This document shows positions 11,066 through 58,826 of a DNA stretch of 64,000 bases, in pieces. Each line of letters opens with the position of its first letter. The stretch's first letter is position 1. The stretch comes from Caldicellulosiruptor morganii. GTDB lineage: Bacteria > Bacillota > Thermoanaerobacteria > Caldicellulosiruptorales > Caldicellulosiruptoraceae. The translations under genes were made by a program, and so were the position numbers. The notes under the pieces are model-generated. The model saw only the letters and a program-made list of their open reading frames with translations, had not been told where the DNA came from and made no database searches. Location of the stretch: NCBI RefSeq assembly GCF_026810225.1, contig NZ_CP113865.1:1632001-1696000 (forward strand), in the 5' to 3' direction.

Positions 11066-11115
11066 CTTTCTGCATCATCCCTTTTTTTGTAATTTCGCAC
11101 ACTCTGTCAAATCAA

Positions 11116-11143
11116 TTATCGGCAAATCAGCTAACCTCTTTTA
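11116..11143 (-). promoter_or_regulatory. Sigma-D (sigma-28) type flagellar promoter of motAB inside the prfA 3' end
   Basis: The minus strand shows GCCGATAA (11116-11123), an exact match to the sigma-D -10 consensus, with TAAA (11140-11143) 16 bases upstream (15 is usual). The -35 lies inside the last codons of prfA. This would couple motAB to the late flagellar regulon independently of the upstream translation-factor operon. Confidence 0.7.
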
Positions 11144-39955: not shown

Positions 39956-40050
39956 TCCTATCACAACACACACTGAAACCTGCATGAGCGTTAAAATCCC
40001 GGATGGCAGCATTGCCGCAAACGTGCCTGCCAAAATTATTACAGCCAATG
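39881..40050 (-). pseudogene. C-terminal remnant of an MMPL/RND-family exporter
   Basis: The minus strand reads LAGTFAAMLPSGILTLMQ followed by two hydrophobic helices and the stop at 39881. This is typical of the last membrane helices of MMPL lipid/peptide exporters. It is out of frame with, and separated by a deletion from, the MMPL periplasmic-domain remnant just upstream. Confidence 0.6.
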
Positions 40051-40719
40051 TATCATTATGAGTCTCAAAGTCCTGAAATCTTTAAAATAGATGCTTCTCA
40101 AATCGTGATTGCTTGACGATATTCCGCCAACACCAAATTCAGTGAATTTTGCATCAACAAACTTCAAAGAGTTTTTCAATACCTTTTCAACACTGTCAAC
40201 AATATCTATTGCTTTGTTTGTATAAGGATTGGTGTCAAGGATAAGGATAATCTTTGTTATTTTTCTGCTCTTATCCATGTATGAATCCAGTGCTTTTTCA
40301 AAATTACTGCTTTTAAGAGCCCCGGGGGGCACATAGAATATATTTGTGTTTTTGTATCCTTCAAAATAATCTTTGAACTTTTGCATGGAATCTGTCATTT
40401 TTTCAAGTGCATCAGAAATTTGCAAAAGCATTGCCTTAAAACTATTCTGCCCATATTGCTTCAGAAAAAACTCATCTACAGTTTGACCTGGATTTACTTT
40501 ATCAAACAATCTCATAACTGCTACAGCTGAAACATTTGTGTGTTTTGCTATCTCTTTCATACTTGTTAAACTTCCAAGTTGACTTATAATATATGCTGCA
40601 AGTCTATTTGTCATCCTTTGAGATTTGCCTATAAAAGTTATGTGTTCAAAAAACTTCTTCCCACATGCTTTGCAGACATATCTTCTCTTTCTTATAATCA
40701 AATATATTTTCTTGCCCAT
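40039..40719 (-). pseudogene. Chimeric ORF: ISL3 transposase N-terminus fused to an MMPL exporter fragment
   Basis: The 226-residue frame has two unrelated halves. Residues 1 to ~93 are an ISL3 transposase N-terminus: zinc-ribbon RYVCKACGKKF, then a helix-turn-helix region SMKEIAKHTNVSAVAVMRLF. From ~94 it reads as an MMPL/RND extracytoplasmic domain (NIFYVPPGALKSSNFEKALD, GVGGISSSNHDL). The joint has no linker. It is most simply explained by IS insertion followed by deletion. Expression as a functional protein is unlikely. Confidence 0.7.
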
Positions 40720-40987: not shown

Positions 40988-43900
40988 TTAATTCTTTGGA
41001 ACAGGCGGTTTTTCTCCGTTCTGGTAATAAATGGTTATATTTATATTCTTCCCATTTGTACCCAGTGGTCTCTTGTGATCAAGCCCAACAAATCTTCCTT
41101 TACTATCCTGCCATAAAGCTGGTTTTAAGAAATTATACTTCTGTTCATCCCATGTCGTAAAATCATATCCCACCAATCCTCCAGTATCACCAGAATTTGC
41201 ATTGTAACACCAGAATGTATGATGAATATGGTTTTCTATAATATAATCTCTCAAATAAGTCATCCACTTTTCATTATCGCCACCATCTAAGTAACCACCC
41301 CATTCACCAATGAGCAACGGAGCTATCCCATTATCCATAATATAAGCCCAATTATCCCTCCAGCAATCATTGTAAAGCGTTTCTTTGGTAAATCCAGGAT
41401 AAAACCAGGGTTGCTGGTAAACCAATGGTCCATAATCATGTGGTGAATAAACCACTTTGTTCTGATACTGTCCAAGGTTTATTGGATACTTTTTAACACC
41501 CCGTAAGTTTCCTCCCCACCAGGTAGAATAATAGTCACTTGATGATTTTGAAGTCCACGTAACATCATCTTTTGGATAAGCTTCTATTCCTTCAATTACT
41601 ATTAACATGTTTGGATTTTTTGCAAGTATTCTCTTCGCACAGGTCTCAGCTGCATATTTCCAGTTGTTAATATCTGTTGAATTGTCCCATTTTGCAAAAA
41701 CACTATCTTGCCATGGTTTACCATGTGGCTCATTCTTCAAATCAAATGCTACAATTGTATCATCATTTTTATATCTCTCTGTGATCCATTCACATGCTTT
41801 ATAATAATCTTCTGGCGTTATAGTATCTGTATACCATACCGGATATATATGCCCCATCGCATCAGTTTTTGCACTATGAATATCCAACATAATTTTCAGT
41901 CCAACTTCTTTGCATGTTTTTACTACAAAATCAAATACCTCTAAACTTGTCAATCCTTCTAACTCTGGGTTAACATAGTAATTTATATTTGGTTTCGGAT
42001 AAATTCCTTTCGACCAATTCAAAATCAGCTCTGCTGAAATCGGTACTCTTAGCAAATTAAATCCTCTGTTTGCAATCTCAGCTAATGCATTTTTAAGATT
42101 ACAACTCCATACACCATCAAACACATTTGTTCCCGTATTAAATCCAAACCAATTAACCCCTGTTAACCATACAGGTTTGCCATCCTTGTCGACTATTTTG
42201 TTACCCTGCGCAAATAACCAATCATCATTTGTATCATCTGTGACAGAAGGAGTCGGAGTGGGTGTTGCAGTTGGCGCTGGTGTTATCGTGATAGAAGGTG
42301 TAGGTGTTGGCGTTGCTGTTGGTGTAGGAGTGGATGATGAAACCGGTGTGGGAGTAGAAGTTGGTGTCACCGTCACAGTAGGTGTTGGTGTGGGCGTAGG
42401 TGTGGTTGTCGGAGTCGGGGTCGGAGTTGCCGTCGGCGTCGGTGCCGGTGTCGGTGTCACTCCACCCGCCGGCTTTGTACCCCTGCTCGGCTCTTTGCCC
42501 CTTACTATCGCATCATCTATATACCCTGTTACCTTCTCGTTCTCTATATAGCTCGTCACACTTCTTACCGAATAGTCATTCGACTGATTGTAGCTGCCGC
42601 TGCTCTTCTGTATGCTTAGCCTTATCTCCTTCGTGCTCTGACCCGCTGCCAAAACACCTGCTCCACTCTTAAAACCTACCTCTACATAATAGTCCGCTCC
42701 GCCGGCATTTGCCCCAAGCTTCACAAACTTCACATCTATATACGCAGGATTTATGCTGCTTGCTACACTTACACTCTGTGTCGCCTCTCCATCTATCGTG
42801 TACCAGTATCTTACCTTAACCCTGCTAAGATCTACCGCCGTCGTCCCTACATTCTCTATCTTTATCTTCGGATTCAATACATTCGTCGTGCTGCTCAAAT
42901 TACCATTCGCATACCATACCTTGATCTGGGCGTTCCTGCTCGGCTCTTTGCCCCATACAAGTACATCATCTATATACCCTGTTACCTTCTCGTTCTCTAT
43001 ATAGCTCGTCACACTTCTTACCGAATAGTCATTCGACTGATTGTAGCTGCCGCTGCTCTTCTGTATGCTTAGCCTTATCTCCTTCGTGCTCTGACCCGCT
43101 GCCAAAACACCTGCTCCACTCTTAAAACCTACCTCTACATAATAGTCCGCTCCGCCTGCATTCGCCCTAAGCTTCACAAACTTCACATCTATATACGCAG
43201 GATTTATGCTGCTTGCTACACTTACACTCTGTGTCGCCTCTCCATCTATCGTGTACCAGTATCTTACCTTAACCCTGCTAAGATCTACCGCCGTCGTCCC
43301 TACATTCTCTATCTTTATCTTCGGATTCAATACATTCGTCGTGCTGCTCAAATTACCATTCGCATACCATACCTTCAGCGCACCGTAACTTTCACTCGGT
43401 GTCCAGTAACTCCCACCTGCCGGTGATGCCGTCGGTGCCGGTGTTGGCATTACACTCACTGTCGGTGTCGGGGTCGCTGTCGGTGTAGGTGTAGGTGTTG
43501 GGGTTGGTGTTGATGTTACTGTCGGCGTTGGCGTTGGTGTTGCTGTGCTTGTCGGTGCAGGTGTCGCTCCTCCCGGCTCCTGCCCCCATACCAGAACTCC
43601 ATCTACATACAGCGTTACCTTCGTATTTTCTCCATAATTCGTCATGCTCTGCATCCATGACCAGTCGTCTGCCTGGTTGTAATTGCTCCAGTCATTCTTG
43701 TTAAACCTTACCTGTATATCCCCTGTGTCCTTCCCAGGCTGCAGCTGCCCAGCTCCACTGCTAAACCCTACCTCCAAGTAATAATCCGCTCCACTCACAG
43801 CGCTGCTCAGCTTCACAAAGTTGAATGTCACATTGCTTGCTCCTATCTGTGCCCAGTCACATACCGCACTCTGCGGCTTGTCACCATCCACCGTGTACCA

Positions 43901-46192
43901 GTATCTTATCTTAACCCTGCTAAGATCAACACTGCTGCTGCCTCCATTCACTATCTTAAACCATGGCCTTATTGATGCCGCACTCGCACTCGTCTCATTG
44001 TTCTTGTACAGTACCTTAAATCCACTTCCCGTACCAGGTGCACCCGTCGGTGTCGGGGTTGGCGTTGGAGTTACACTTACTGTTGGTGTCGGGGTCGCGG
44101 TTGGCGTTGGTGTGGATGTTGGTGTAGGTACTTGAATAGCTGGCGGCGCTGGCAATGTTGAGTTGACCGGCACCACAGTTGGCTCAATCAGGCTCCAAAA
44201 GGCATATTTTGATTTATAGTTTTCATCAAATAACAACGGGTAATCACTTTTTCCAAAGTTTTGACTCAGCCATGAGTAATCATCCTTTAGTCCCCAGAAT
44301 GTTACATTAGTTATTACATTGTACTTTTTAAATAAATCGAATAACTCCTTATATCTCATTGCCTGTTTTATCAGGAGATCTCTTGGTGGCGTTGAATAAC
44401 TGGTACTCGAACCCCACTGATAAAAACTCATATCAAGCTCTGTAATGTGTATCTCCAATCCAGGTATAGAGCTGAACAATTTTATGGTGTTCTCTATCTC
44501 GCTAATCGAGGGCCAATCAAGATTTATATGACACTGCAATCCTATTCCATGAATTGGAACACCTTTTTCCTTGAGACTCTTAATCATGTTGTAAATAAAC
44601 TGTCTCTTCTGACTGTTTTCTGTGTTGTAATCGTTGTAAAACAATTTTGCGTCTGGATCGGCTTCATGTGCCCATATAAAAGCCTTTTCAATATATTCGG
44701 GACCACAAATGTTGTACCAGTTAGATCTCCTGAATCCATTACCTTGACTTTCATCTATTGCTTCATTTACCACATCCCATGCATAAACCTTCCCTTTATA
44801 TCTTCCCACTACCGTATAAATATACTGCTTTAATCTGCTTAGCAATGCATCCTTGCTCAAGGTATTTCCATTTGCATCCTTGAAAAACCAGTCGGGTGTT
44901 TGCTCATGCCAAACCAGTGTATGACCTCTGATGGCAATGTTGTTACTTGTTGCAAAATTTACAAATTCATCTGCTTTACTAAAGTTATAATTATTTTCAC
45001 TGATAAGTAACTCTGATGGTTTCATTTCATTCCCTGCAGTAATACTATTGAAATGCTTCAAAACCATCTTCTTCTCTGTATCAGAAGCAATGCTTTTGTA
45101 AGATAAAGCTACCCCTACTTTGAAATAATCTTTATACTTTTCTATCAAAGATGGTATCTCCCATTCAGGTTCAGCCAGCTTGGATAAATCATAAATCTTT
45201 AAATCATCAACCCAGAAAGCCAAATTTGCATTTTGTGCCTCAACATAAAGTAATAACTCGCTAACTGTAACACCAGCAGGAATTGAGTAGCTTCCACTCA
45301 GCTCAACCCACGTATTACTCGGTACATCCCTGTTATATATCAGATTTTCATAGCTTGTTGAAGGATCTGTAGCAAATCTCCTTTGCATAGTTAATGACAT
45401 TTTTTGAGTTGAACCACTGTTCTGATAAACCCAAACACTTATTTTATATACTTTACCCTGTTCCAAAATTGTATCCACCGGAATCTGTGCACCATGCCAA
45501 TTTGACGTTCTCCCACTGACGTACAAACTATACTTGCCATTATATGCCACAACGCTATCTGGTTTTACTGTAACACCGCTTCCCCTTGCCTGCCATCCTT
45601 CGGTGGTACCACTTTCAAATCCACTTGAAAATGTCACCGCATTTGATAGGTAACTATTATCATCCATTATTTGGATATAGTCAACATTATAATCTACTCC
45701 ACTTTCTACAATTGTGTGTACTACAATTAACAAATTCCTGACATTGCTAATATTTGGAGTCCATTTACCAACAATTTTCTTCCAATAATTTGGAATAGCC
45801 ACAACCTCACCTATAAGAGTACTCTTAACCCCACTTCCATCGTCATAAACCGCTGAGATACCAAATGCAACCGGCTTCTGGTAGCTATGTTTTACATACG
45901 CTGAAACTACCCATGTGGTTCCATTGTTCATAATGTTTTTAACATCAACTGCAACTCCATCCCATATTGAACTTCTATTTGACACCCTGATACTGCTTTT
46001 ACCATTATATGCATTGCTCATGTCAACTGCAATGTTTGATTTTCCATATGCAAAGAAAGATAGAGTATCAGTGCCTTCAAAATCCACAGTATATGCTGCT
46101 GCTTTTGCTTCTTGATGAAATATCAAAGTACCTACAAGCGTGTTTATTAAGAAAAACAATAAAGAAAGAATTGAAATTACCCTCTTCTTCAT
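40988..46192 (-). CDS. Multi-modular secreted xylanase/glucanase: CBM22-CBM22-GH10-CBM3-CBM3-CBM3-GH5
   Basis: About 1,734 residues. Signal peptide (1-32); two CBM22 (~33-335); GH10 (~340-676) with acid/base Glu in WDVVNEAID and nucleophile in HITELDMS; Pro/Thr linker; CBM3 (~724-873); linker; two nearly identical CBM3 (~934-1237); linker; GH5 (~1320-1734) with DLKNEPHG and LIGEWGGY. It degrades xylan/beta-glucan (GH10) and cellulose or mannan (GH5) while bound to crystalline cellulose by CBM3. ATG 46192 is 8 bases after GGGGAG; an in-frame GTG at 46201 overlaps less well. It starts 45 bases after the pilus gene with no terminator between. Resembles Caldicellulosiruptor CelB/XynC-type enzymes. 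Confidence 0.93.
42486..43390 (-). repeat. Tandem near-identical CBM3 modules (453-bp unit)
   Basis: The segment beginning CTCGGCTCTTTGCCCC recurs at 42486 and 42939, a 453-bp period (151 codons). The two units are almost identical in DNA, differing at a few positions (e.g. GANAGG against RANAGG), while the first CBM3 of the protein is clearly divergent. This points to a recent duplication. Confidence 0.85.
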
Positions 46193-46237
46193 CTTACTCA
46201 CTCCCCTTTTTGACTACTATTTCTAAATATTAACCTT

Positions 46238-48367
46238 TTACTCTATACTCATTCTTCGATTTATTATTTGGAAATTATTTGTGGTACCCGTGGTTATATT
46301 TGCTGTGGGCACAGGAGTTGGTGTTGGAACAATGGGCAAATTCAAATCATTGGTAATTTCATTTATGGTTTGCTCGCTCGGTCTGTCCCATATGATTTTT
46401 AGATTACCAGTGCTATTGACATTGAATCCTGTATCTTCAGCAAGTGAAATAAAAACACCATTTCTAATTATATTTCCAGAAGGACTCATATCAATACCCT
46501 GTGTTGTCATAAGTACGAGACTGTCACCACTTTGCAACGGAGGTATGCGACTTGAGTCGTAAAAATCGTTGTCATTGATTTGAGCAGTTGCATACCACTT
46601 GTATTCAGCAGGTGGCCCAGCAACAACCTGCTCTGCATGAAATTTACTCCAATCTCCACCAACTATGTTTCTAATCTCATCTTTTTTGCTTAATATCGAA
46701 TCCTGCCAGAATGTAAGTATTGAGCGAACATCATCAACAATTGCCGGAGCCGATAGAGATGTGTATGAGTAAGACAAACCCGAATCATTCTGAAATTTGC
46801 TGCGAATGGAAGATGGAAAACTGCTCAGAGCTGGTAAAATACTTCTGTATTTGATTCTATCACTGGTGGGCACATCAAGTGTGTTCAGTAAACCGCTGTT
46901 AAAATTCATTGACAAAGATTGGCCGGTAAATACTCCCAGTGTTACATAATTGTTACCTGTCATGTTAAGGTTTTCAGAATAAAACTCACCACTTGCCACT
47001 GTGGTATTTCCACTTCTATAGCCTCCGAAGAAAGATCTATTCGCAGCACTGCTACCACTGCCACCCCAGGTTATATTTTTAGCATACAGCTTTGCGCCAT
47101 TTTCTATATACAGATTTACATTCTGATTTTGCGCCGTTAGATTCTGGCAATATAGCTCTGCTCCAGGGCCCAAAATTACAGTCGCACCGTCTGAAATTGT
47201 CAGGTTATCAATACACCCTTTAGAATCAATTCTGATTTGAGTACCAGCTCCACTTACCTGAACTTTTTTGGCATATATCTCCTTTACAGTCATTTTTGAA
47301 CCAGCATCCCATATAATGCCTTCGTTTTGGTCATCAACAGCAAGAATATTGGCATCAAGTGTTATGCCACCGCTGTTTGCTCTAAAGTTACCTTTGGTAT
47401 AAAATATACCCGAAGCTTTGACGGTGGATGGCGATGACTGGTTTGTATTGAAAATAGTGTTGCCAAGCACAATTATGTTTGTTACATCAAGATAACAGGC
47501 TTCTCCAACAGTCAAGTCCTTTGCCGTGCCAATATTGCCACCCACAACAGTTAAATGTTTGTTCGCATTTATATTCCCATAGGAGAACATTGCATAGTCA
47601 AAAATATCAAATGGATTTGGAGTGGATACCGGAGTTGTTGTATTGACTGTTGCAAGATTTACAAAGTTGGTTGGATCTATTTCGGGAATTTTGAATTCTA
47701 CTCTTTCCACTCTTTTTGTATTTTTGCCTTTTTCCCTTGCTATTGTGCGTAAAATAAACATGTTACTGGATGAATCATAGTCTATTTTTATGTCTTCAAG
47801 TGAAAAATCTGATAAACGACTCTCAAAATCCGCTTTGAGGTAATCTTTGAGCTGAGAAAAGCTGCTTACAATGATTCCGCTGTTATCAACATTAAAACTG
47901 ACACCCGTCCCATTTGAAAATCCAAGAAATTCTAACAACTTCTTTGTCACATACTTTGTCATACCCTGCTTTATTCTTTCCTTTGCCTGATCATATGTGA
48001 TGGAAGGCGGCGAACCATACAAAGCAGTTCTGATTGTCTTTGGTTCATACATTACATCGGATGGTGATAGCTCGCCAATATTAGCTGAAATTACCATATT
48101 ATCATCGAAATAGTACTTTAAAACCGATCTTTTAATCTCTTCCAGCAATTGATTTAGATAAAACAATGTCTTTTCGGTTCCACTTTGAGAGGCATAAGCA
48201 GTTGTTGTTTTTTGAAATATCGAAACACTTCTGTTAAGCGAAGCCACAACTGCTGACATGCTTCCCAGCACCATGACAAACAAAATGCTTATAAGAATTA
48301 TTACTATAATAAGAGCTGAACCTCGATTAACAAAAAGCTTATTATTTCTTCTTTTCATTTTGTTCAC
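46238..48367 (-). CDS. PilX-like N-terminus with large beta-helix-like body (possible pilus-associated adhesin, tapirin-like)
   Basis: The 709-residue protein has an N-terminal PilX-type membrane segment (RGSALIIVIILISILFVMVLG). After an alpha/beta stretch (~50-230) comes a long run (~250-520) of short beta strands with polar turns, patterned like a right-handed beta-helix (e.g. GGITLDANILAVDD, DSKGCIDNLTISDGATVILG). It ends in a Pro/Thr-rich tail. The 4-base overlap with the pilV-like gene places it in the pilus operon. In Caldicellulosiruptor, tapirins with beta-helix cores that bind cellulose are encoded next to the pilus locus. Whether this is a tapirin relative is inference. Confidence 0.6.
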   Translation of the reverse strand: MNKMKRRNNKLFVNRGSALIIVIILISILFVMVLGSMSAVVASLNRSVSIFQKTTTAYASQSGTEKTLFYLNQLLEEIKRSVLKYYFDDNMVISANIGELSPSDVMYEPKTIRTALYGSPPSITYDQAKERIKQGMTKYVTKKLLEFLGFSNGTGVSFNVDNSGIIVSSFSQLKDYLKADFESRLSDFSLEDIKIDYDSSSNMFILRTIAREKGKNTKRVERVEFKIPEIDPTNFVNLATVNTTTPVSTPNPFDIFDYAMFSYGNINANKHLTVVGGNIGTAKDLTVGEACYLDVTNIIVLGNTIFNTNQSSPSTVKASGIFYTKGNFRANSGGITLDANILAVDDQNEGIIWDAGSKMTVKEIYAKKVQVSGAGTQIRIDSKGCIDNLTISDGATVILGPGAELYCQNLTAQNQNVNLYIENGAKLYAKNITWGGSGSSAANRSFFGGYRSGNTTVASGEFYSENLNMTGNNYVTLGVFTGQSLSMNFNSGLLNTLDVPTSDRIKYRSILPALSSFPSSIRSKFQNDSGLSYSYTSLSAPAIVDDVRSILTFWQDSILSKKDEIRNIVGGDWSKFHAEQVVAGPPAEYKWYATAQINDNDFYDSSRIPPLQSGDSLVLMTTQGIDMSPSGNIIRNGVFISLAEDTGFNVNSTGNLKIIWDRPSEQTINEITNDLNLPIVPTPTPVPTANITTGTTNNFQIINRRMSIE

Positions 48368-49137
48368 CTCCTCACCATAAATTTATACCTCTTCAAAACA
48401 ACACCTCTCTTTGAGTCTTTAATCTCCAGTGACACCTCTACAAGCTGATTGAAATAGGATGATGTGCTTGTGTCGAAAAACTCCACCCTGTCACTAATTG
48501 TAACAGGTTTTAAATAATGAAAATTATTGAACTCCCCCCAGTTTATTAATAATAGAGGATATCGACTTGTGCTGTTTTGTCTAAAAATACCATCCACGTT
48601 AACATCGAAACTGTTTGCAAGTTTGTTTTCAAGCCACAGGATATTAAAGCTCGGAAAATCAATTGAGCAAACCTGAAAGACACCCGCAAAGCTAAACTTA
48701 TATTCAGCTCTGTTTGAACCTTCATCGTAGTACACATCTAAATTTACAGGAGATGATACCACTGTTATGCCTGCGGGCTGATAAACAATATTTCCACCGC
48801 TGTACACCTTTTTGTATACAGTAAGTGAGTTCTGACTGTCACCTTCAACAATAATGTCATAATTCGATTTTGTTATATTGCATGAATAATTAACCTCATA
48901 TACATTGTTATCAAAATCATAGCCAATTGAGCCATTTGATGGATAAGCACTGGTTCTTACCTGTTCGTAAATTTTCTCCACCGCATCATTCAAAATTTGA
49001 TTTACATCCATTTCAACTTTTGCCTTTGATGTAACTTTTACAGACTGATTGATAGAAAATCCGATTGGAATAATAAACAGGGCAAACAAAGCAACAGCAA
49101 CAATTATCTCAACCAGAGAAAAACCTTTGAGTCTCAT
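48364..49137 (-). CDS. PilV-like pseudopilin
   Basis: About 257 residues begin MRLKG-FSLVE, a short prepilin leader with the class III cleavage site G|FSLVE followed by a 20-residue hydrophobic helix. The rest is a beta-rich minor-pilin domain. ATG 49137 is ~9 bases after AAGGTG; GTG 49149 is an in-frame alternative. It is processed by PilD and would sit at the pilus tip or prime assembly. It overlaps the PilX-like gene by 4 bases. Confidence 0.75.
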   Translation of the reverse strand: MRLKGFSLVEIIVAVALFALFIIPIGFSINQSVKVTSKAKVEMDVNQILNDAVEKIYEQVRTSAYPSNGSIGYDFDNNVYEVNYSCNITKSNYDIIVEGDSQNSLTVYKKVYSGGNIVYQPAGITVVSSPVNLDVYYDEGSNRAEYKFSFAGVFQVCSIDFPSFNILWLENKLANSFDVNVDGIFRQNSTSRYPLLLINWGEFNNFHYLKPVTISDRVEFFDTSTSSYFNQLVEVSLEIKDSKRGVVLKRYKFMVRR

Positions 49138-49194
49138 CACATCTATCACCTTACAATCTTATCTCTTTTTCAAACCCCAAAGACACTGATAAGC

Positions 49195-49836
49195 CTAATT
49201 AAACAAATTGCTTTTGCCGCTTTTAATCCCTTTGCTAAACGGAAACCAGCTTCGTGGCAAACTCTGAGGGTCGGTAAAACCATAGAATTTTATGCGGACA
49301 TTGGCTGTAAGTTTACCTGAAGTCTTGTTAATAGAAAATGCCTCCACTGTAAACAAAGGTTTGAACTTCTGCTGTTCATCCAAAAGCTGTTTTATCTTAT
49401 CATATGTTACCTCTTCCCAGGTCTGCCTTGTTAGATAAAAATATGGATAATATTCTTCACCCAGCTCTTCTTTTTTTGCACTCTCCAAATCGATTTTCTG
49501 TCTTGGATCAAAGATATATGACTTTGTGTCTACTTTTATCCTTTGAAGAAGGTACTGAAGATCCATCACACAAAATTTCTCATCCTGGTTGGGTGGTATG
49601 ACATCCTTCAACTTGTTATACTCAACCCTGGCTTTTTCAATCTCCTTCTTTTTTGAATTGTACTGTGCTATTACCATATTCAAACGATCCAATTCATTGC
49701 TGAGTAGTTCATATTCCTGTTTTTTTGCAGCAATTTTCTCTGAAAAGTTTGTATAAATAAAATAGTAAAATACAAACCCCAGTAGAAGAACTGCCAGAAG
49801 GGATAGCAACCATTTCTCTCTATTTGAAAGTCTCAT
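49195..49836 (-). CDS. pilO: Type IV pilus alignment-complex protein PilO-like
   Basis: About 213 residues have one membrane helix (~10-30), a coiled-coil segment (KQEYELLSNELDRLNMVIAQ), and a ferredoxin-like C-terminal domain. ATG 49836 follows AAGGTGG; an in-frame ATG at 49857 is less likely. Sequence similarity within this family is low, so the call rests on architecture and on following pilM and pilN. Confidence 0.72.
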   Translation of the reverse strand: MRLSNREKWLLSLLAVLLLGFVFYYFIYTNFSEKIAAKKQEYELLSNELDRLNMVIAQYNSKKKEIEKARVEYNKLKDVIPPNQDEKFCVMDLQYLLQRIKVDTKSYIFDPRQKIDLESAKKEELGEEYYPYFYLTRQTWEEVTYDKIKQLLDEQQKFKPLFTVEAFSINKTSGKLTANVRIKFYGFTDPQSLPRSWFPFSKGIKSGKSNLFN

Positions 49837-49888
49837 AATACACCACCTTTTCCTCATTTATTATTGCTGATAATCCATTCACTTGATT

Positions 49889-50422
49889 TTATTTTGCAAT
49901 TTCAGCCATTACGACAGCATTCAAAGTCCCTTCATTTTCGCTTGCACCGTTAAATGTTATATTCGTAAAGTGTGAATCATTTTGAACATTGTAAACAAAC
50001 TGAACAACACTTTCCAACTTTTTGGCTGCAAGATTGCATGTCATTTTTCCATCCTCAATCTGCAGAGATTCCATGGAAACATCCACAGGCAGAAGTTTTT
50101 CAACAGTCAACAAGACATCTTTTAGCTTCCTGTTTTCTGCAAATTTTTCGTCTATAAATGCCTTTTTAATCTCAAAAAGTTTTACAATAAACATCTCCCT
50201 TTTGATTTTATCAACTGTGATTCTTTTGGTTTGAACTTCGGTTTTGAGTGTATCCACTTTTATGCTATACGTAATTGACTGTGTGATCAGTATCGCACTG
50301 AAAATCAAAAAAAACGCAAAAGCACCAATTAGAAATAATAAATGCCCTATTCCTCCGCTGTCATCTTTCTGAAATTGTTTGTAATATGCTTCCAGTAAAT
50401 TTATATCCTTTACCGGTGGCAT
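49889..50422 (-). CDS. pilN: Type IV pilus assembly protein PilN-like
   Basis: About 177 residues have the conserved cytoplasmic N-terminal motif DINLLEAYYKQF, which in PilN binds PilM, one membrane helix (~30-52), a coiled coil and a small alpha/beta domain. The ATG 50422 lies after AGGAGGTG. It joins the PilMNO inner-membrane platform. Confidence 0.78.
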   Translation of the reverse strand: MPPVKDINLLEAYYKQFQKDDSGGIGHLLFLIGAFAFFLIFSAILITQSITYSIKVDTLKTEVQTKRITVDKIKREMFIVKLFEIKKAFIDEKFAENRKLKDVLLTVEKLLPVDVSMESLQIEDGKMTCNLAAKKLESVVQFVYNVQNDSHFTNITFNGASENEGTLNAVVMAEIAK

Positions 50423-50457
50423 TGCATCATTCACCTCCTCTTTCACTCACAAAATTA

Positions 50458-51411
50458 TTACACAATTCCACTGATCCCGGCAATATATGTAAGTATTTCT
50501 CCACGCTGAATTTTAGAGGATTTTACACATTTTAGCTCTCCCAGCAATTCCACCTCAATGTTCAGCCTTTTTTGGATAATATAACTTACATCTATGTGCT
50601 GACAAACTTCACCCGTCAGGTATAACTTGTTTACCTCTCTAATAGACTCCTCGCGTGTTCGCAGAAAGTCATAGAATTTCAATATACTTTCAGCAATCGT
50701 ATCTTCTATTACACTGAACTCATACTCATTTCCTTCCTTTTCTGAAAACATTTCTTCAAGCTGAATTATGGGGAACAGCTTTGTTATCAAAAGCTTCCCT
50801 TCTGATGCAACAGATATACTAACCCCATTTCTGCTTATATTTGCCACCAGAAACGGCGCTGTTTGATCATCACCGCGAATATTTTTCTCCAGTTTCAAGA
50901 GATTAACAACCGAGTTTGGCTCAATATCTATTTTGCCAATTTTAATTCCAGCATTTCTGAAAGCATTTATCAACCCCTCAATAATCTGTCGCTGAACGCC
51001 CACCATGAGAACTTTTTGTTTTTTTGTATTCCCTTCAGATACAACTTTAAGCTGTTTATAGTCCAAAACATAGTTATTTAAATTTATTGGGAAGTATTGC
51101 TTTGCCTCGTTTCTGATAAGGCTGTACATTTGGTTTTCCTTTACAATTGGAACTTCTATTTCTCGAATTAAAATATTGGAAATACCACATAGCACAACTC
51201 TGACATTGTTTTTTGGAAATTCTTTACCCTTGAAAATTTCTCTCAGCTGGATTTGCAAGAAAACATCGTCAACTTTTGTGTCTTCTTTTATAACAGGGTC
51301 ATTAAAATTTTTTTCATGCCACTTAACTGGATAAATGTAATCTCCCTTTATACTCCCAACAACCACTCTCACGTAGTTTTTTCCAACTTCAACAACAACT
51401 TTATCGCTCAT
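50458..51411 (-). CDS. pilM: Type IV pilus assembly protein PilM
   Basis: About 317 residues with an actin-like/FtsA fold: N-terminal phosphate-binding strand VVVEVGKNYVRVVVGS, then LIRNEAKQYFPINL and LYLTGEVCQHIDV. It is the cytoplasmic partner of PilN. ATG 51411 follows GAGGTG by 7 bases, making it preferable to the in-frame start at 51432. It is 11 bases upstream of pilN and 22 bases after the pseudopilin gene. Confidence 0.82.
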   Translation of the reverse strand: MSDKVVVEVGKNYVRVVVGSIKGDYIYPVKWHEKNFNDPVIKEDTKVDDVFLQIQLREIFKGKEFPKNNVRVVLCGISNILIREIEVPIVKENQMYSLIRNEAKQYFPINLNNYVLDYKQLKVVSEGNTKKQKVLMVGVQRQIIEGLINAFRNAGIKIGKIDIEPNSVVNLLKLEKNIRGDDQTAPFLVANISRNGVSISVASEGKLLITKLFPIIQLEEMFSEKEGNEYEFSVIEDTIAESILKFYDFLRTREESIREVNKLYLTGEVCQHIDVSYIIQKRLNIEVELLGELKCVKSSKIQRGEILTYIAGISGIV

Positions 51412-51453
51412 TTCATTCACCTCAATAAACAAACTTTGAAAATAAAAGCTGTT

Positions 51454-51987
51454 TTATTCAGTTCTTAAAACATGCGATACTTTATATTTGCGCTTAATAT
51501 CCATCGAAGCACGTCTTGTTACAAAAACTTCATATTCTACTTCAACCTTTTTTATAGTTCCAAAAGCAATCATTCTACTATCAAAAAACGTAACCCTGCC
51601 GGTTAAAATCTGGTAGGGGCTGCTACCGGTTTTTTCTATTACGACTGACTTGCTTGCACTTACCCATGTAACTTTTACATGATACGTTCCAGCAACAGCT
51701 CCGGATGCAGCAGGTTGAGCTTCATATACATCCATTTCAACAATTTTATCCCCTGCTGATGAAACAGAAACATTTATACTTCTTTGATCTGCCATCTCAA
51801 ACCATTGCCTCAGAGAGTCGCTGAGTCGCTTTGCCTCACCTTCAATCCTGGCTGTGTTGTAGGTTTCAACTGAGATTTTATAGTTCTGGATAAAAAAAGA
51901 ATACAGAGCAGCTAAAATTATACCCAGTATTGCAACACCTATTATCATTTCAACCAGAGTAAGACCTCTTAATCTTGCTTTTATCAT
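51454..51987 (-). CDS. PilW/GspJ-like pseudopilin
   Basis: The 177-residue protein has prepilin motif RLRG|LTLVEMIIG, a hydrophobic N-terminal helix and a beta-rich body. Leu at +1 replaces the usual Phe, seen in some minor pilins. It overlaps the preceding pseudopilin gene by 4 bases. Confidence 0.78.
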   Translation of the reverse strand: MIKARLRGLTLVEMIIGVAILGIILAALYSFFIQNYKISVETYNTARIEGEAKRLSDSLRQWFEMADQRSINVSVSSAGDKIVEMDVYEAQPAASGAVAGTYHVKVTWVSASKSVVIEKTGSSPYQILTGRVTFFDSRMIAFGTIKKVEVEYEVFVTRRASMDIKRKYKVSHVLRTE

Positions 51988-52535
51988 TTAACTTCTACGC
52001 TCCCCGGTGGTGAGGTCTTTATTAAAACCGTCTTTCTATACCGCCCACCACCAAAATTTTTTATATTAACCACCAGTTCCTTTGCAGATGTAAAGTACAC
52101 ACTCTGCCCGGCAGGTGAACCAGTAAATCTCCACAAATTGCCATCATTGCCATAGCATATATATGTCCAAACAGGACCTGAACCGGTGACAATCAGATCA
52201 TTTGGTGTAACAATCTCCACTCTGCTGCTTTTTAGTTCGTCCAAAACTACTTCTGAACCGCCCTGCCGTTTTACAAGCTGAATCTGAAAATAATAATTTC
52301 CACTTGAATCAGGAACAATATAGTTGTTAATCTTTATGTAGTAGGTTGTATAGTTCATCTCTTTGTCTTCTAAATCATACAACTTCTGAAACATATCGGC
52401 AATTTGATTTGCCGCACTCTGCACCTCAGCCCTGTTTTTCCCGGATAAATAATTCGGTATTGCAATGCTCAGAATTATTGCCAGAATAGCAAGAACAATT
52501 ACCATCTCAACAAGGGAAAAACCCTTCCTTTTCAT
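51984..52535 (-). CDS. GspH/FimT-like pseudopilin
   Basis: About 183 residues start MKRKG|FSLVEMVIVLAILA, a classical class III prepilin leader. The C-terminal part is a beta-rich GspH-like domain ending FGGGRYRKTVLIK. ATG 52535 is preferred because it gives a short leader; ATG 52559 is in frame and overlaps comFB by 4 bases. Confidence 0.82.
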   Translation of the reverse strand: MKRKGFSLVEMVIVLAILAIILSIAIPNYLSGKNRAEVQSAANQIADMFQKLYDLEDKEMNYTTYYIKINNYIVPDSSGNYYFQIQLVKRQGGSEVVLDELKSSRVEIVTPNDLIVTGSGPVWTYICYGNDGNLWRFTGSPAGQSVYFTSAKELVVNIKNFGGGRYRKTVLIKTSPPGSVEVK

Positions 52536-52555
52536 GTTATACATACCCTCTTTAA

Positions 52556-52852
52556 TCATTTATCTCTGAACTCTTTATCATGCTTCTGATTGTTCTTTAC
52601 TATAAACATAGCAGCCGCCAAAGCTGCTATAACGTCAACTCTAAACTGAGATTCCATACTCTTTAACATTGAGTAAATCTTACCTTCCTCTGTAACATAA
52701 TACCTTGGGGGAAGCCTGTTGAGTGCCAGTGCTATTACATCGGCTCTGCACTTTTCACATGTACAAACCGCATCTTTAAAGTCCTCAATAACAACATCAT
52801 AGTACTTTTCAACTATTTCCTCCATTGCATTCTTAACCTTATACTTCATCAT
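52556..52852 (-). CDS. comFB: ComFB-family protein (late competence protein/cyclic-dinucleotide receptor family)
   Basis: The 98-residue protein has a helical N-terminus (KNAMEEIVEKYYD) and the family core CTCEKCRADVIALALN followed by LPPRYYVTEEG, so a zinc-type cysteine cluster and the ComFB fold are visible. Cyanobacterial ComFB proteins were reported as cyclic-dinucleotide receptors linked to type IV pili and natural competence; that role here is inference. It lies between pilD and pseudopilin genes and overlaps its neighbour by 4 bases. Confidence 0.85.
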   Translation of the reverse strand: MMKYKVKNAMEEIVEKYYDVVIEDFKDAVCTCEKCRADVIALALNRLPPRYYVTEEGKIYSMLKSMESQFRVDVIAALAAAMFIVKNNQKHDKEFRDK

Positions 52853-52859
52853 GTATTAC

Positions 52860-53660
52860 CTACCCTATCATGTATGTTTTATATAGCTCTAAAATCCTTT
52901 CACCAAAAACCATGGTTAAATAAATTCCAAGTGAAATGAAAGGTCCAAAGGGAATTGCTTTTTTTACCGAATCCTTACCTTCCAATTTGTGAGTCGCCGC
53001 TATATAAATTATCCCGTATATCGCAGCGCTTATAAAAGACAGCATATTGCATAAAATTGCTTTGCCAAAACTAAAACCAAAACCGCCTGCCAGCAGCAGT
53101 AGCACATCACCCAGCCCCATTGCTCTTTCACGTGTTATAAAATATATCATAAAAACAAGCAACGCAGAATAAACCGAGCCCATAAATAAACCCATTATCT
53201 GCAATGCACCGGGCTGTTTGAGCCTCAATACTTCAAACACAGCTTTCAAAACAAGAAGAAAAATTATGCTCAATGTGGATATTTCAAAGGTATTAAAATC
53301 AACAGCACCGATGTATATCAAAAGGCAACCTATGATAAAAAACAAAACAGCAAGCAATATGCTTTGAAAAAAATAAAAGTTAAACGCCATAATAGCATTT
53401 AAGCCTGTCAAAAGTTCCACCAGAGGATACTGTATACTGATTTTCTCCCTGCAGCCACGACATCTGCCTTTTTGGATCAAATAGCTCAAAACAGGAATAA
53501 GCTCAAACCAACCCAGTCTTTTTCCGCACCTCGGACATCTGCTTCCTGGTGCTATTATGGATTCCCCTCTGGGAAGTCTGTAAATACAAACATTCAAAAA
53601 ACTGCCAATCACAAGCCCCATGACAAATGCAAAAATCCCAAACATTCCAAAACCTCTCAA
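52860..53660 (-). CDS. pilD: Prepilin peptidase/N-methyltransferase PilD
   Basis: The 266-residue membrane protein begins with the methyltransferase region GSFLNVCIYRLPRG and two CxxC pairs (RCPRCGKR, RCRGCREK). The peptidase aspartates are in GAVDFNTFEI and the GxGD motif GLGDVLLLLAGG. It removes prepilin leaders after glycine and methylates the new N-terminus. All pilins and pseudopilins in this locus are expected substrates. Confidence 0.93.
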   Translation of the reverse strand: MRGFGMFGIFAFVMGLVIGSFLNVCIYRLPRGESIIAPGSRCPRCGKRLGWFELIPVLSYLIQKGRCRGCREKISIQYPLVELLTGLNAIMAFNFYFFQSILLAVLFFIIGCLLIYIGAVDFNTFEISTLSIIFLLVLKAVFEVLRLKQPGALQIMGLFMGSVYSALLVFMIYFITRERAMGLGDVLLLLAGGFGFSFGKAILCNMLSFISAAIYGIIYIAATHKLEGKDSVKKAIPFGPFISLGIYLTMVFGERILELYKTYMIG

Positions 53661-53783: not shown

Positions 53784-54242
53784 TTATTTGTATCTAGCAT
53801 AATCCGGTGTTGGATAGAGCATAACTTCTGTGTTTCCATCACTGGTCTTTGTATAAATCTCTATCTTCTCATCAGAAGGGGTAAATTTCAAATAATAATC
53901 TTGGTTGGAAAGTCTTGTTTTGAAAGAGAAATTATCACCAAGATATTTTTTTACAACATCTTGGGCACTCTCAGCACTACCACCACCTGGTGGTGTAAGG
54001 TTCACACTTGCCAAAGCAGTTGCATTGGAAGTTGACGGAATAACATAGCCATCGGCTATTGCCTGCAACAGAGCAGTTGCAATCTGCTTTGCACTTGATG
54101 CATCTGATGTTGCTCTTGCCCTGTTAATCTGCTTCATGACCTGCGGAACAATTATTGCAATCAATATTGCAATAATAGCCATAACAATAACCATTTCAAT
54201 CAATGTAAAACCTCTGTTTTTTCCTGTTAATCTGCTTAACAA
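53784..54242 (-). CDS. pilA: Type IV pilin (second)
   Basis: The 152-residue protein has an 11-residue leader ending NRG|FTLIE, the conserved Glu5, and a long hydrophobic helix ending in IIVPQVMKQINRAR. The soluble domain is small and has a Gly/Pro stretch (TPPGGGSAES). It may be the major pilin because of its compact size and gap from downstream genes. About 120 bases without a clear terminator follow. Confidence 0.85.
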   Translation of the reverse strand: MLSRLTGKNRGFTLIEMVIVMAIIAILIAIIVPQVMKQINRARATSDASSAKQIATALLQAIADGYVIPSTSNATALASVNLTPPGGGSAESAQDVVKKYLGDNFSFKTRLSNQDYYLKFTPSDEKIEIYTKTSDGNTEVMLYPTPDYARYK

Positions 54243-54272: not shown

Positions 54273-54695
54273 TTATTTATAGCTTTTATCAAAGTTGGGA
54301 TAAAGCTCCCAAAAGTTTGTGCCATCTCCGGCATAAACCTTTAAAACACTGTCAAACCGGTAATAAAAACTGTAATTCCTGTTTAGGGTTGGCTTTGGGG
54401 TACCCCCTGAAATATAGTCACTCAGTTTTATAAAGTGATTTGCATCCAGATTTATCACATCCCCAGTTATTTCATGAAAATTGTTATCTAAAATTATATC
54501 TGAAAGCAAAGTGTTTTGTTCAATCTCCCACAGATAGAACGACTGTGCTATTTCTTTTGCCGCCTTGACATCTGCCACAACCTTAGCCCGGTTTAAACTT
54601 TTCATAACCTGCGGAAACACAATTGCTCCAAGCACAGCCACAATAACCATAACAACCACAAGCTCAATAAGCGTAAAACCTTTTTCAGGCTTCAT
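54273..54695 (-). CDS. Type IV pilin (first)
   Basis: The 140-residue protein has a 6-residue leader MKPEKG|FTLIELVVVM and the same helix plan as the next gene (FPQVMKSLNRAK), but a different soluble domain. Two adjacent pilins derive from gene duplication and may be major and minor subunits. It lies between pilC and the second pilin. Confidence 0.85.
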   Translation of the reverse strand: MKPEKGFTLIELVVVMVIVAVLGAIVFPQVMKSLNRAKVVADVKAAKEIAQSFYLWEIEQNTLLSDIILDNNFHEITGDVINLDANHFIKLSDYISGGTPKPTLNRNYSFYYRFDSVLKVYAGDGTNFWELYPNFDKSYK

Positions 54696-54748: not shown

Positions 54749-55963
54749 TTACTGCACACCTATGCTTCCGTACATCTTGAACATCGGCAGGTAAATTGAT
54801 ACCATCAAGAATCCTATCATTACAGCTAACAGTACAATCATCAATGGCTCAAAAATTGTGGTAAGCCTTGTTACCTGATTCTCCACCTCATTTTCAAAGT
54901 AATCAGCAGCTTTTGTTAGCATTAGCTCAACATTGCCACTTTCCTCACCTGTTCTTATCATAATCTCAAGCAGTCGGGGAAATACAGGAACCTGACTGAT
55001 GGGGTCACTCAGCCCCTGCCCGCTTTCTACCATTTCAATTATCTTCTCAAATTCCTTTTCAATGTATTTATTCGTCAAAACATTCCTTGTAGTCTCCAGA
55101 GCTATTACAAGGCTCACACCGGCAGAAAGCATGGTCCCCAGAGTTCTTGCAAATCTGACAACTATCTGCCCCAGAATCACATTCCCTACCAGTGGAATTT
55201 TTAATTTGAACCTGTCAATATAATATCCTCCCTTTTCGCTGGCTTTTGCAAAATAGTAGGCAAAAATCAGAGCTAAAACTACCAGAACTATTATTATCAA
55301 GTTTGAAGTTAAAAATTCACTGACTCCTATCAACAGTCTGGTTGGTGCTGGAAGGTCAACATTCAGCTCCTTAAATATCTTAACAAATGTAGGTATAACA
55401 ATCAGCAACATCAAAACTGCAACCGCTAAACCTATCAATATGACAAGCACGGGGTAAATCAATGCATTGACTATTTTCTGCCTGAGCTTCATTTCCTTTT
55501 CAAAGTGGGTTGCCATTCTGTCAAACGCTTCATCAAGAGAACCCGACATCTCACCGGCTGCAATGGTGTTAATAAGAATTGCCGGAAATCTTCCTTTTTT
55601 TTCTTCCAGTGCTGCCGATAAAACAGTCCCACCTTTAACCTTCTGACTTATATCTTCGATATCTTTCCCGAGATTTTTTCCTTTGAATTGCTCGGCAACA
55701 ACCTCCAGAGCTGTCACAAGCGGAATACCCGACATCAGCATTGTGGCCATTTGTCTGCAAAAAATGGATAAATCTTTTAAAGCTATCTTTTTTCTAAATG
55801 ATGGTGCTATTTCCTTTTGCAAAACTCCTTTTTCTCTTAAATCAACTACATAAAGATTTCTCCTTTTCAGACTTTCAGAAGCGCTTTCAGGAGTATCAGC
55901 AATCAATGACCCTTTTATCTCTTTACCCGTCTCATCAAGAGCAGTAAATATGTATTCGGGCAT
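54749..55963 (-). CDS. pilC: Type IV pilus inner-membrane platform protein PilC
   Basis: The 404-residue protein has two GspF domains (~70-190 and ~270-395) each followed by membrane helices, with typical motifs FCRQMATMLMSGIPLV and FARTLGTMLSAGVSLV. It links the ATPases PilB and PilT to the growing pilus. Length is normal. Confidence 0.94.
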   Translation of the reverse strand: MPEYIFTALDETGKEIKGSLIADTPESASESLKRRNLYVVDLREKGVLQKEIAPSFRKKIALKDLSIFCRQMATMLMSGIPLVTALEVVAEQFKGKNLGKDIEDISQKVKGGTVLSAALEEKKGRFPAILINTIAAGEMSGSLDEAFDRMATHFEKEMKLRQKIVNALIYPVLVILIGLAVAVLMLLIVIPTFVKIFKELNVDLPAPTRLLIGVSEFLTSNLIIIVLVVLALIFAYYFAKASEKGGYYIDRFKLKIPLVGNVILGQIVVRFARTLGTMLSAGVSLVIALETTRNVLTNKYIEKEFEKIIEMVESGQGLSDPISQVPVFPRLLEIMIRTGEESGNVELMLTKAADYFENEVENQVTRLTTIFEPLMIVLLAVMIGFLMVSIYLPMFKMYGSIGVQ

Positions 55964-56012: not shown

Positions 56013-57071
56013 TCAAGCAGACAATAACTTTTCCATATAGTCGAAATCAGTTGCATGAGCATATGCATCATCTCTTGTAATAAGCCCTCGTTTGTAAAGT
56101 TCTATCAAAGACTGTTCCATAGTTATCATACCAACCCGCTGATGTGTTTGAATTATGGACGGTATTTGATAAGTCTTGTTCTCTCTAATAAGATTTCTTA
56201 TAGCAGGATTACAAATCATTACCTCTGTTGCAACAACTCGACCTTTTCCATCGCGTCTTGTCAAAAGTTGCTGTGAAACAACACCCTGAAGAACAGTAGA
56301 TAGCTGAACTCTAATCTGCTGCTGTTGATGTGGAGGAAACACGTCAATTATACGATCTATGGTCTTTGCAGCACCAACCGTATGCAGAGTTGAAAACACA
56401 ACGTGACCGGTCTCAGCAGCTGTTAGCGCAATAGAGATGGTTTCCAGATCTCTCATCTCACCAACCAGGATAACATCTGGATCTTCACGCAGTGCTGCTC
56501 TCAGAGCATTAGCAAAGCTTTTTGTATCATTTCCTATTTCCCTCTGATTGATTATACTTTTTTTATGTTTATGCAAATACTCAATAGGATCTTCCAGTGT
56601 TATAATATGTAAATCTCTTTCACTATTCATTATATCAATTAACGAAGCCAGAGTTGTTGATTTACCCGAGCCCGTGGGACCTGTTACCAGTACAAGCCCT
56701 TTATTTAATTTTGTAAATTCTTTTAAAACAGCAGGAAGACCCAGACTTTCAAAAGCTGGTATATTGGCGGTAATCACTCTGAAAGCTATTGAATATGAAC
56801 CACGTTGCTTGTAAGCATTTACTCTGAATCTGCTTACCCCTCTTATACTGTAAGAAAAGTCCAGCTCACCCACCTCTTCAAGTTTGCTGAATTGCTCGGG
56901 AGTCAGAATCTGTCGCACATATTCCTCAACCATCTCGGCGGTGAGATTATCTTCGTCTTCCATTTTCACAAGTTTGCCGTGTATTCGAAAAACAGGTGGC
57001 ACCCCCGGTGTAATATGAATGTCAGACGCGTTTTTTAGAAATGCTTCTGTCAGAATCTCATTTATATGCAT
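56013..57071 (-). CDS. pilT: Pilus retraction ATPase PilT
   Basis: The 352-residue hexameric ATPase has Walker A GPTGSGKSTTLA, Asp box DPIEYLH, Walker B DVILVGEMRD, and the PilT hallmark AIRNLIRENK near residue 290. It depolymerises pili, providing twitching or tension. Its presence argues that these pili are dynamic rather than static secretion pseudopili. Confidence 0.95.
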   Translation of the reverse strand: MHINEILTEAFLKNASDIHITPGVPPVFRIHGKLVKMEDEDNLTAEMVEEYVRQILTPEQFSKLEEVGELDFSYSIRGVSRFRVNAYKQRGSYSIAFRVITANIPAFESLGLPAVLKEFTKLNKGLVLVTGPTGSGKSTTLASLIDIMNSERDLHIITLEDPIEYLHKHKKSIINQREIGNDTKSFANALRAALREDPDVILVGEMRDLETISIALTAAETGHVVFSTLHTVGAAKTIDRIIDVFPPHQQQQIRVQLSTVLQGVVSQQLLTRRDGKGRVVATEVMICNPAIRNLIRENKTYQIPSIIQTHQRVGMITMEQSLIELYKRGLITRDDAYAHATDFDYMEKLLSA

Positions 57072-57107: not shown

Positions 57108-58826
57108 TTATGATTCTATCGCATAGGTAACTTTTAAAAACTCCTCCACTGAAGTAATCCCCGATAAAACCCTTTCTCTACATGCTTCTTTCAGTGTCTT
57201 CATCCCTTCTTTTATGGCCAATTCTTTTATTTCTTCACTGCTCACGTCCTTTTTGTTTATCAGCTTTCTCAATTCCCTCGTTACCAACAATATCTCATAT
57301 ATACCTGTTCGTCCAAAATAACCTTTACCCTCACAAATATGACAGCCATCCTTCTTATATAATTTTACCACATTTTCAGATTCAATATCAAGAAGCATTT
57401 TTTCTTCCTCATTTGCTTCATATTCTACCTTGCAGTACGGGCAAAGTTTTCGAACAAGACGCTGAGAAATTACCCCGACCAGTGAAGAGCTGATGAGAAA
57501 GTTATCAATCCCCATATCAACCAGGCGTGTAACAGCACTTGCTGCATCATTTGTATGAATGGTGGATAGCACCAAATGCCCTGTAATAGCAGCTCTTATT
57601 GCCATATCAGCCGTCTCTTTATCTCGAATCTCACCGATCATAATTATATCCGGGTCCTGCCTCAAAATTGAACGAAGAGCGGCTGCAAACGTAAGACCTG
57701 CCTTTACGTTCACTTCAACCTGATTGATGCCTTCAATTGTACTCTCAACAGGGTCCTCAACAGTTATAATGTTTCTTAATCCTGTATTAAGTTCATTCAA
57801 AATGGTGTACAAAGTTGTTGACTTACCACTTCCAGTAGGTCCACATACAAGTATAATTCCATGCGGTGCTGCTATTAATTTTTCATACTTTTCCAAATCA
57901 TCCTTTGTCAAACCCAGTTCAGTTTTGGATTTCACAAAAGCACTTTTATCTATAACTCTCACAACTATCTTTTCCCCAAAAACTGTTGGCAACGAAGAAA
58001 TTCTCATATCATAAATCCTGTCATAAAGGATATAGGTGGTTCTTCCATCCTGAGGTACCCTTTTCTCAGCAATATCCATGTTTCCAACAACTTTTATTCT
58101 CGCAGTTAAAGAAGGTAAAATTGAAATGTCAAGCTTTAAAACATCATATAAAACTCCATCAATTCTATAGCGAACTTTCACATGGTTTTCAAAAGGCTCA
58201 ATATGAATATCACTTGCTCTTGAAGTTATTGCCTGCTCAAAAATGGAATTTACAAGCCGCACAACAGGCCCCTCTGTGCCGTCCTCTAACCCAAGCTGAA
58301 ACCTGGGAGTAATTTGAACTCTCCGTCCAGCCGTCTCTCTCTCAGAAGTTTCTTTCTGCAGTTCTTCCACCGCTTTCAATGTTTCCTGCTTTCCATAGTA
58401 TCTTTCAATAGCTCTTATTATATCCGATGCTCTTGCAATTCTTGGCACTACCCTTCTCCCTGAATAAATTTCAACATCTTCAATAGCGAAAATATTCAAA
58501 GGATCTGCCATAGCTACAATTAAATTGTCCTCTTCGTCAAAACCCACCGGAATAAGTGTATGTCTTCTGGCTAACTGCTCTGACACAAAATCTATTGCTT
58601 TGGGATCTATTGGATAAATATCCAATTTAATGTGAGGTATCCCCAGTTGAAATTCAAGCAGTTCTACCAGTTCGTCTTCACTTATTATTCCTTTTTCAAC
58701 CAGAATCTCACCAAGCTTCTTATTGGTCTCTTTTTGCAACTGTAATATTTCTTCCAACTGCTGAGGAGTTATTATTTTTGATTCAACCAGAATATCTCCA
58801 ATACGTTTTCTTTCCCGTGGCATCAA
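57108..58826 (-). CDS. pilB: Pilus extension ATPase PilB
   Basis: The 572-residue protein has an N-terminal MshEN/GspE-N domain (~5-150), of the type that can bind cyclic-di-GMP in some PilB/MshE proteins, then the ATPase core with GPTGSGKSTTLYTI, Walker B DIIMIGEIRD, and the C-terminal zinc site with CPYC and CHIC pairs. It powers pilus assembly. Its ATG overlaps the stop of the upstream REC-fusion gene by 4 bases, suggesting coupled expression. Confidence 0.95.
   Translation of the reverse strand: MMPRERKRIGDILVESKIITPQQLEEILQLQKETNKKLGEILVEKGIISEDELVELLEFQLGIPHIKLDIYPIDPKAIDFVSEQLARRHTLIPVGFDEEDNLIVAMADPLNIFAIEDVEIYSGRRVVPRIARASDIIRAIERYYGKQETLKAVEELQKETSERETAGRRVQITPRFQLGLEDGTEGPVVRLVNSIFEQAITSRASDIHIEPFENHVKVRYRIDGVLYDVLKLDISILPSLTARIKVVGNMDIAEKRVPQDGRTTYILYDRIYDMRISSLPTVFGEKIVVRVIDKSAFVKSKTELGLTKDDLEKYEKLIAAPHGIILVCGPTGSGKSTTLYTILNELNTGLRNIITVEDPVESTIEGINQVEVNVKAGLTFAAALRSILRQDPDIIMIGEIRDKETADMAIRAAITGHLVLSTIHTNDAASAVTRLVDMGIDNFLISSSLVGVISQRLVRKLCPYCKVEYEANEEEKMLLDIESENVVKLYKKDGCHICEGKGYFGRTGIYEILLVTRELRKLINKKDVSSEEIKELAIKEGMKTLKEACRERVLSGITSVEEFLKVTYAIES

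Follow-up and report, generated by a model that had tools for sequence, protein, structure and literature searches.

A strongly diverged tapirin homologue closes the pilus operon of Caldicellulosiruptor morganii and is probably a K-type minor pilin

The window analyzed here, the whole stretch of 64,000 nucleotides of Caldicellulosiruptor morganii DNA (GC content 36.2%), contains a complete type IV pilus operon that runs from pilB through pilT, pilC, two pilin genes, the prepilin peptidase gene, a ComFB-family gene, two minor pilin genes, pilM, pilN, pilO and a third minor pilin gene to the gene of a tapirin homologue, which is the last of the operon (Table 1). The reading frame of the homologue overlaps that of the preceding I-like minor pilin by 4 bp; the latter matched the ComGE model with an E-value of 7.8e-6, under that model's cut-off. 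A ComFB-family gene is found within the pilus operon of C. morganii and of most of its relatives. Just upstream of pilB (window 58823-61858) lies the gene for a protein of 1011 aa, in which an N-terminal response regulator domain is all that was recognised. On the other side, a 1737-aa enzyme with a GH10-CBM3-GH5 architecture is encoded on the same strand, 36 bp downstream of the tapirin homologue gene. The promoter/terminator scan listed no terminator-like site in this 36-bp gap, and this absence is the only use we make of a scan whose output was near that of its shuffles. A foreign origin of the tapirin homologue gene was considered on the basis of base composition and rejected, as its GC content (37.9%) gives no such sign beside that of the remaining operon (37.7%).

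Table 1. Genes of the pilus operon and its downstream neighbour, and segments of the tapirin homologue, in window coordinates
Feature	Coordinates	Strand	Basis
Secreted GH10-CBM3x3-GH5 enzyme with two CBM_4_9 modules	40988-46201	-	Pfam
Tapirin homologue, probable K-type minor pilin, 709 aa	46238-48367	-	NF051896, PDB matches, fold
C-terminal part, residues 521-709, tapirin-like	46241-46807	-	Alignment; modelled without confidence
Extra stretch, residues 433-520	46808-47071	-	Alignment; low model confidence
Predicted parallel beta-helix core, residues 246-440	47048-47632	-	AlphaFold2 single-sequence, structural Z-scores
N-terminal ectodomain (residues 81-245), also conserved in classical tapirins	47633-48127	-	Alignment A1, 6n2b match
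Mature hydrophobic alpha1 stalk, residues 17-80, PilX/K-like	48128-48319	-	Tapirin N-terminal profile, invariant columns
Basic leader up to G16; cleavage by prepilin peptidase predicted between G16 and S17	48320-48367	-	Motif scan
I-like minor pilin (ComGE/PilV-like), Glu5 present	48364-49149	-	N_methyl; ComGE model
pilO	49195-49857	-	T2SSM just under cut-off
pilN	49889-50446	-	Pfam PilN
pilM	50458-51432	-	Pfam PilM_2
J-like minor pilin, Glu5 present, letter tentative	51454-51987	-	
H-like minor pilin, Glu5 present, letter tentative	51984-52559	-	
ComFB-family protein	52556-52852	-	Pfam ComFB
Prepilin peptidase pilD	52860-53660	-	Pfam A24_N_bact, Peptidase_A24
Two pilins	53784-54242, 54273-54695	-	
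pilC	54749-55963	-	
pilT	56013-57071	-	
pilB	57108-58826	-	

The limits of the tapirin homologue gene agree exactly with those in the preliminary description of this DNA, and its listed start codon is GTG. Translation probably begins at the ATG at 48358, three codons inside, because the Shine-Dalgarno-like AGGAGGTG stands before that ATG. The minor-pilin-like N-terminus that had been described was found as such: the basic leader ends in VNR-G16, an uncharged stretch beginning with S17-A-L-I-I-V comes next, and the motif scan showed that Glu is absent at mature position 5. The hydrophobic alpha1 stalk contains many invariant columns in the two alignments made here (A1 and A2), and the match to the solved tapirin 6n2b begins at residue 53.

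The NCBIfam tapirin model NF051896 matched the homologue over residues 4-707 with 262-263 bits (E 4.5e-78), which misses the model's naming cut-off of 600 bits. As a yardstick, the same model gave 779 bits for the C. hydrothermalis sequence (near-identical to 6n2c), 977 for that of C. kronotskyensis (near-identical to 4wa0) and 56-58 for two atypical forms of about 900 aa. A sequence search of the PDB up to an E-value of 10 returned only 6n2b (2.7e-26) and 4wa0 (1.5e-18), both of which are tapirins, and the 95.7 bits of the match to 6n2b may be set against the 37.7 bits with which 6n2c, an accepted tapirin, matches the same chain. The homologue is about 28-31% identical to 11 classical tapirins, 24% identical to the C. 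hydrothermalis form and 19-21% identical to the atypical forms of about 900 aa. The product of the gene is a strongly diverged tapirin homologue to which the automatic naming of NCBI does not extend, and the suspicion of a divergent tapirin in the preliminary description was thus borne out by the full-length profile match, the two PDB matches and the fold comparison below. Tapirins as such, with a beta-helix and a gene position upstream of the cellulase locus, were already known, and atypical forms had been reported (PMC7142884); the C. morganii protein is a new and strongly diverged member of this known kind. A single-sequence scan of genome contigs found no relatives, an alignment-based contig scan found only a PilX-like gene of Clostridium ragsdalei (161 aa) that lies in a pilus operon, and searches of viral contigs and of PHROGs found none.

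Two structure predictions were made without an alignment, one of the full-length homologue and one, using AlphaFold2, of its body (residues 250-709). The body model contained a parallel beta-helix, with a pLDDT of 69-94 in 10-residue blocks over residues 270-430; beyond about residue 470 the pLDDT fell below 50, and the assignment of the C-terminal third comes from the sequence alignment only. When the body model was aligned using VIA-align, the solved tapirins were well ahead of unrelated beta-helices, with Z-scores, covering residues of about 255-510, of 21.7 (6n2c), 21.3 (6n2b) and 20.6 (4wa0) and a best unrelated score of 14.9. In Foldseek, the score of which is partly sequence, tapirin chains accounted for all matches with an E-value up to 0.001 (5/5 for the body model and 3/3 for the full-length model). 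Since the body model is disordered in its C-terminal half, its global TM-scores were low, at 0.26-0.35 relative to query length. As modelled, the body of the homologue is therefore a tapirin-type parallel beta-helix, in agreement with the beta-helix-like body that had been described from the repeats. Enzymes of the PL6, GH28 and GH110 families also appeared among the structural neighbours, with Z-scores of about 12-14, which raised the possibility of a pilin that carries, in its beta-helix, an enzyme for polysaccharide cleavage (a lyase or hydrolase). However, the tapirins were ahead of these by about 7 Z units, Foldseek gave the best enzyme an E-value of 0.18 when the body model was used and of 0.011 when the poorer full-length model was, and Pfam gave nothing real on the whole homologue and no enzyme family at E-values up to 1. 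We regard an enzyme as highly improbable, and the PL6, GH28 and GH110 identities were rejected, their structural matches being far weaker than those of the tapirins. Neither of the outcomes named in the preliminary description as refuting it, a predicted fold lacking a beta-helix or a clear place in an unrelated enzyme family, was thus obtained.

Two segments set the homologue apart from the classical tapirins. At 709 aa it is longer than these (638-660 aa), with about 80 extra residues near positions 433-520, where only 13-16 of the 88 positions align to classical tapirins. Trp, Tyr and Phe together make up 11 of these 88 residues, compared with 66 of the 709 in the whole protein; the stretch is at most a candidate aromatic platform for cellulose, as the model is unreliable there. 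The Pro/Thr tail of the preliminary description also exists, though it is short (around residues 679-690, IVPTPTPVPTAN); in most of the aligned classical tapirins, the corresponding tail is not rich in Pro and Thr.

We investigated the pilin-like half of the protein across 13 genomes of the family, namely C. morganii, 11 others of the genus and one other of the family. Glu5 was present in all 63 other pilins of these operons and in none of the 18 tapirins, a count that omits one pilin from outside the family (L052) and the broken second tapirin of genome G011. When 24 genomes of the class outside the family were searched using a profile of all 18 tapirins, 15 of them gave a match, and each of these gave exactly one; the fifteenth match (G035) lies near a contig end and was left out of the comparison of operons. 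In the surroundings of the other 14, the match was the K gene every time, the fourth of four consecutive minor pilin genes, within the gene order pilB-T-C-A-D-H-I-J-K-M-N-O (14/14). When the N-terminal profile of the tapirins was used, the 14 K proteins all came top among 440 ORFs, with 28.0-35.4 bits, and the best non-K ORF, a pilin, scored 22.4 bits, although this link resides in a hydrophobic segment of about 65 residues that is similar in all pilins. The reverse search with a K profile placed the tapirin homologue first among the 163 ORFs of the window, weakly (E 0.0012). The two related K proteins that were scanned are both PilX_N proteins, so the PilX-like anchor proposed in the preliminary description holds by way of the N-terminal profile, but not by way of Pfam PilX_N (PF14341) itself, which had no match in the homologue or in the C. 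morganii genome at E-values up to 1; among the 18 tapirin homologues it matched five at this threshold, the best at 1.5e-7. The whole C. morganii genome contains five N_methyl pilins, every one of them in the pilus operon, so that without the tapirin the system would have no recognised K subunit.

In type IV pili, the minor pilins form a tip complex that is capped by the subunit without Glu5, and adhesive domains are often grafted onto pilins (review PMC10191384). Because of the missing Glu5, the operon slot and the K-like N-terminus, tapirins are most likely the K subunits of their pili, which would cap the pilus tip and carry a grafted cellulose-binding beta-helix. The preliminary description had offered a divergent tapirin and an adhesin at the pilus tip as alternatives; we infer that they are one and the same, the protein being a tapirin that would sit at the tip and bind cellulose. 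This has to be weighed against another reading, in which the pilin-like N-terminus is a mere membrane anchor and the tapirin either remains in the cell envelope or is shed, with no involvement of the pilus. Athe_1870 and Athe_1871 are the tapirins of C. bescii. Both proteins occur in an extracellular proteome study (PMC5865380), and the part of PMC7142884 available to us presents tapirins as adhesins for cellulose and gives them no role as pilins. Nonetheless, the prepilin-like G/S motif with its uncharged stretch and the PilD of the same operon, the fixed slot of the tapirin, which closes the pilus operon in all 13 family genomes, and an N-terminus that most resembles the K pilins in related operons all argue against a mere anchor, which we therefore consider unlikely.

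The copy number of the tapirins bears on a different possibility. C. morganii has a single copy, and two tapirins in tandem, present or former, are found in six of the 13 family genomes, all relatives of C. morganii, one of them having its second copy broken; a single tip cap fits these less simply. Such pairs would be consistent with a non-core minor pilin placed along the shaft, as PilX and PilV of Neisseria are reported to be, so that the pili would bind cellulose lengthwise, and non-core minor pilins along filaments have indeed been described (PMC10191384). The same review, however, gives the lack of Glu5 as the mark of the capping subunit, the C. morganii genome has no other K candidate, and a bulky body of about 600 residues would presumably crowd the shaft. 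We think a position along the shaft improbable and favour the K-type tip cap. In the tandem pairs of L042, L043, L046 and L047, the two tapirins of a genome are nearly identical over the N-terminal 200 or so residues and differ in the body, which looks like the product of repeated gene conversion in the anchor half. In G011 (L050:9700-14301), a transposase-like ORF (10542-11384) separates the pieces into which the second tapirin is broken.

Matches along the length of the body were found in all 13 family genomes, while those outside the family were N-terminal only, bar one weak body match in a member of the phylum; as far as sampled, the beta-helix graft appears to belong to this family. Pilus operons of other members of the phylum encode PilX-like proteins of 657-710 aa (L070:9148-11280 and L071:7561-9534), the long bodies of which gained no Pfam name over the cut-off. 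In the profile search the long-bodied PilX proteins of L029, L031, L032 and L070 had only the N-terminus in common with tapirins, and Pfam likewise gave their bodies no name above a cut-off. Large grafted K-type pilins may thus be common. Within the family, pairwise RpoB identities were determined for nine of the 13 genomes. G005 and G008 are 98.8% identical in RpoB and their K proteins, the tapirins, only 21% identical; G008 and G003 are 92.8% identical in RpoB and their K proteins 94-98%. The partner minor pilins and PilM, PilN and PilO show the same split as the tapirins, as does PilT with far less variation, which suggests that the minor pilins and the tapirin move as one block.

The slot between pilus genes and a cellulase, to which the preliminary description had drawn attention, proved to be retained on the pilus side; downstream there is the one GH10-CBM3-GH5 gene, and the GH48 genes of the classical locus are elsewhere. 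C. morganii has three of them, the nearest of which starts 519 kb from the tapirin homologue gene, compared with a GH48 gene at most 9 kb from the tapirin in all seven other Caldicellulosiruptor genomes that have GH48. C. morganii thus keeps just half of the classical slot, which adjoins the pilus operon on one side and the cellulase locus on the other. A fragment of an ISL3-family transposase lies just downstream of the GH10-GH5 gene (window 40039-40719) and may be what is left of the rearrangement by which the GH48 cluster was parted from the pilus operon. At 2.19-2.225 Mb, the C. morganii genome has a separate cluster of giant enzymes (1620-1931 aa), three of them with GH48, in which segments are 81-99% identical to the GH10-GH5 protein of the window.

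The distance to the GH48 genes could also be a sign that the body of this K pilin binds a target other than cellulose, for instance DNA, xylan or another surface. The ComFB-family gene in the operon, the identity of only about 30% to classical tapirins and the extra stretch of about 80 residues would be consistent with this, as would the greater abundance of Athe_1870 on C5 substrates in C. bescii (PMC5865380). On the other hand, the fold is shared with tapirins of both strong and weak cellulose degraders for which cellulose binding is reported, and the adjoining downstream gene encodes three CBM3 modules. There remains, in our estimate, a minor but real chance of a target other than cellulose.

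We consider it likely that the diverged tapirin of C. morganii is a tip pilin of the K type that is cut by PilD, faces outward with a beta-helix that grips cellulose or a related polysaccharide, and is pulled by PilT. The protein would be made as a type IV prepilin and cut after G16 by the prepilin peptidase of the operon, and its hydrophobic alpha1 helix would set it at the pilus tip as the K (PilX/GspK/ComGG-type) minor pilin. The grafted body, facing outward, would then grip cellulose or a related plant polysaccharide, and pilus extension followed by PilT-driven retraction would pull the cell onto the fibre, beside the secreted GH10-CBM3-GH5 enzyme encoded directly downstream. We also lean towards the broader proposal that all tapirins are tip-capping K pilins in which a beta-helix that binds cellulose has taken the place of the small head. 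The pilus tip of these thermophiles would then be a dedicated grapple for cellulose, and the tip adhesin would be exchanged between species as a cassette that includes its partner minor pilins. Tapirins were discovered as adhesins of extremely thermophilic cellulose degraders, to whose cellulose substrate they bind, and the mode of their attachment to the cell is absent from the accounts available here; in the open-licence literature searched, no text mentions both tapirins and type IV pili. If tapirins are K-type pilus caps, attachment to the fibre and pilus retraction become one machine.

The tapirins of C. kronotskyensis (4wa0), C. kristjanssonii (6n2b) and C. hydrothermalis (6n2c) were the structures compared here, and the C. 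morganii homologue has in common with the classical tapirins an anchor, an N-terminal domain, a beta-helix, a C-terminal part and the slot that ends the pilus operon. It differs from them, besides its length, in its one copy, in its score below the NF051896 cut-off and in a GH48 cluster that is not adjacent. This divergent copy widens the range of sequences from which cellulose-binding residues can be deduced. The atypical tapirins of C. owensensis, C. acetigenus and C. changbaiensis resemble the homologue in their operon slot, in a PilX-like N-terminus without Glu5 and in matching the tapirin model only weakly, whereas they differ from it in their length (897-900 aa) and are as distant in identity as given above. 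About 100 bp beyond the atypical tapirins, a secreted protein of about 655 aa with a VWA domain was seen in both of the two loci scanned out of four (L041:12716-14719 and L049:12155-14119); a possible role for it is that of a PilC/PilY1-like tip partner. Classical genomes showed no such protein in this place.

The K pilins (PilX/GspK/PilK/ComGG) of related genomes of the class share with the tapirins the hydrophobic G/S-A-L start without Glu5 and, like them, adjoin other minor pilins in the pilus operon, but at 177-219 aa they have no room for a beta-helix body of the tapirin kind. A further parallel is found in the modular tip pilins PilB and PilC of Streptococcus sanguinis, the grafted domains of which presumably differ from the tapirin body. 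In both of these proteins an adhesive domain is grafted onto a minor pilin (PMC10191384), which is the arrangement proposed here for tapirins.
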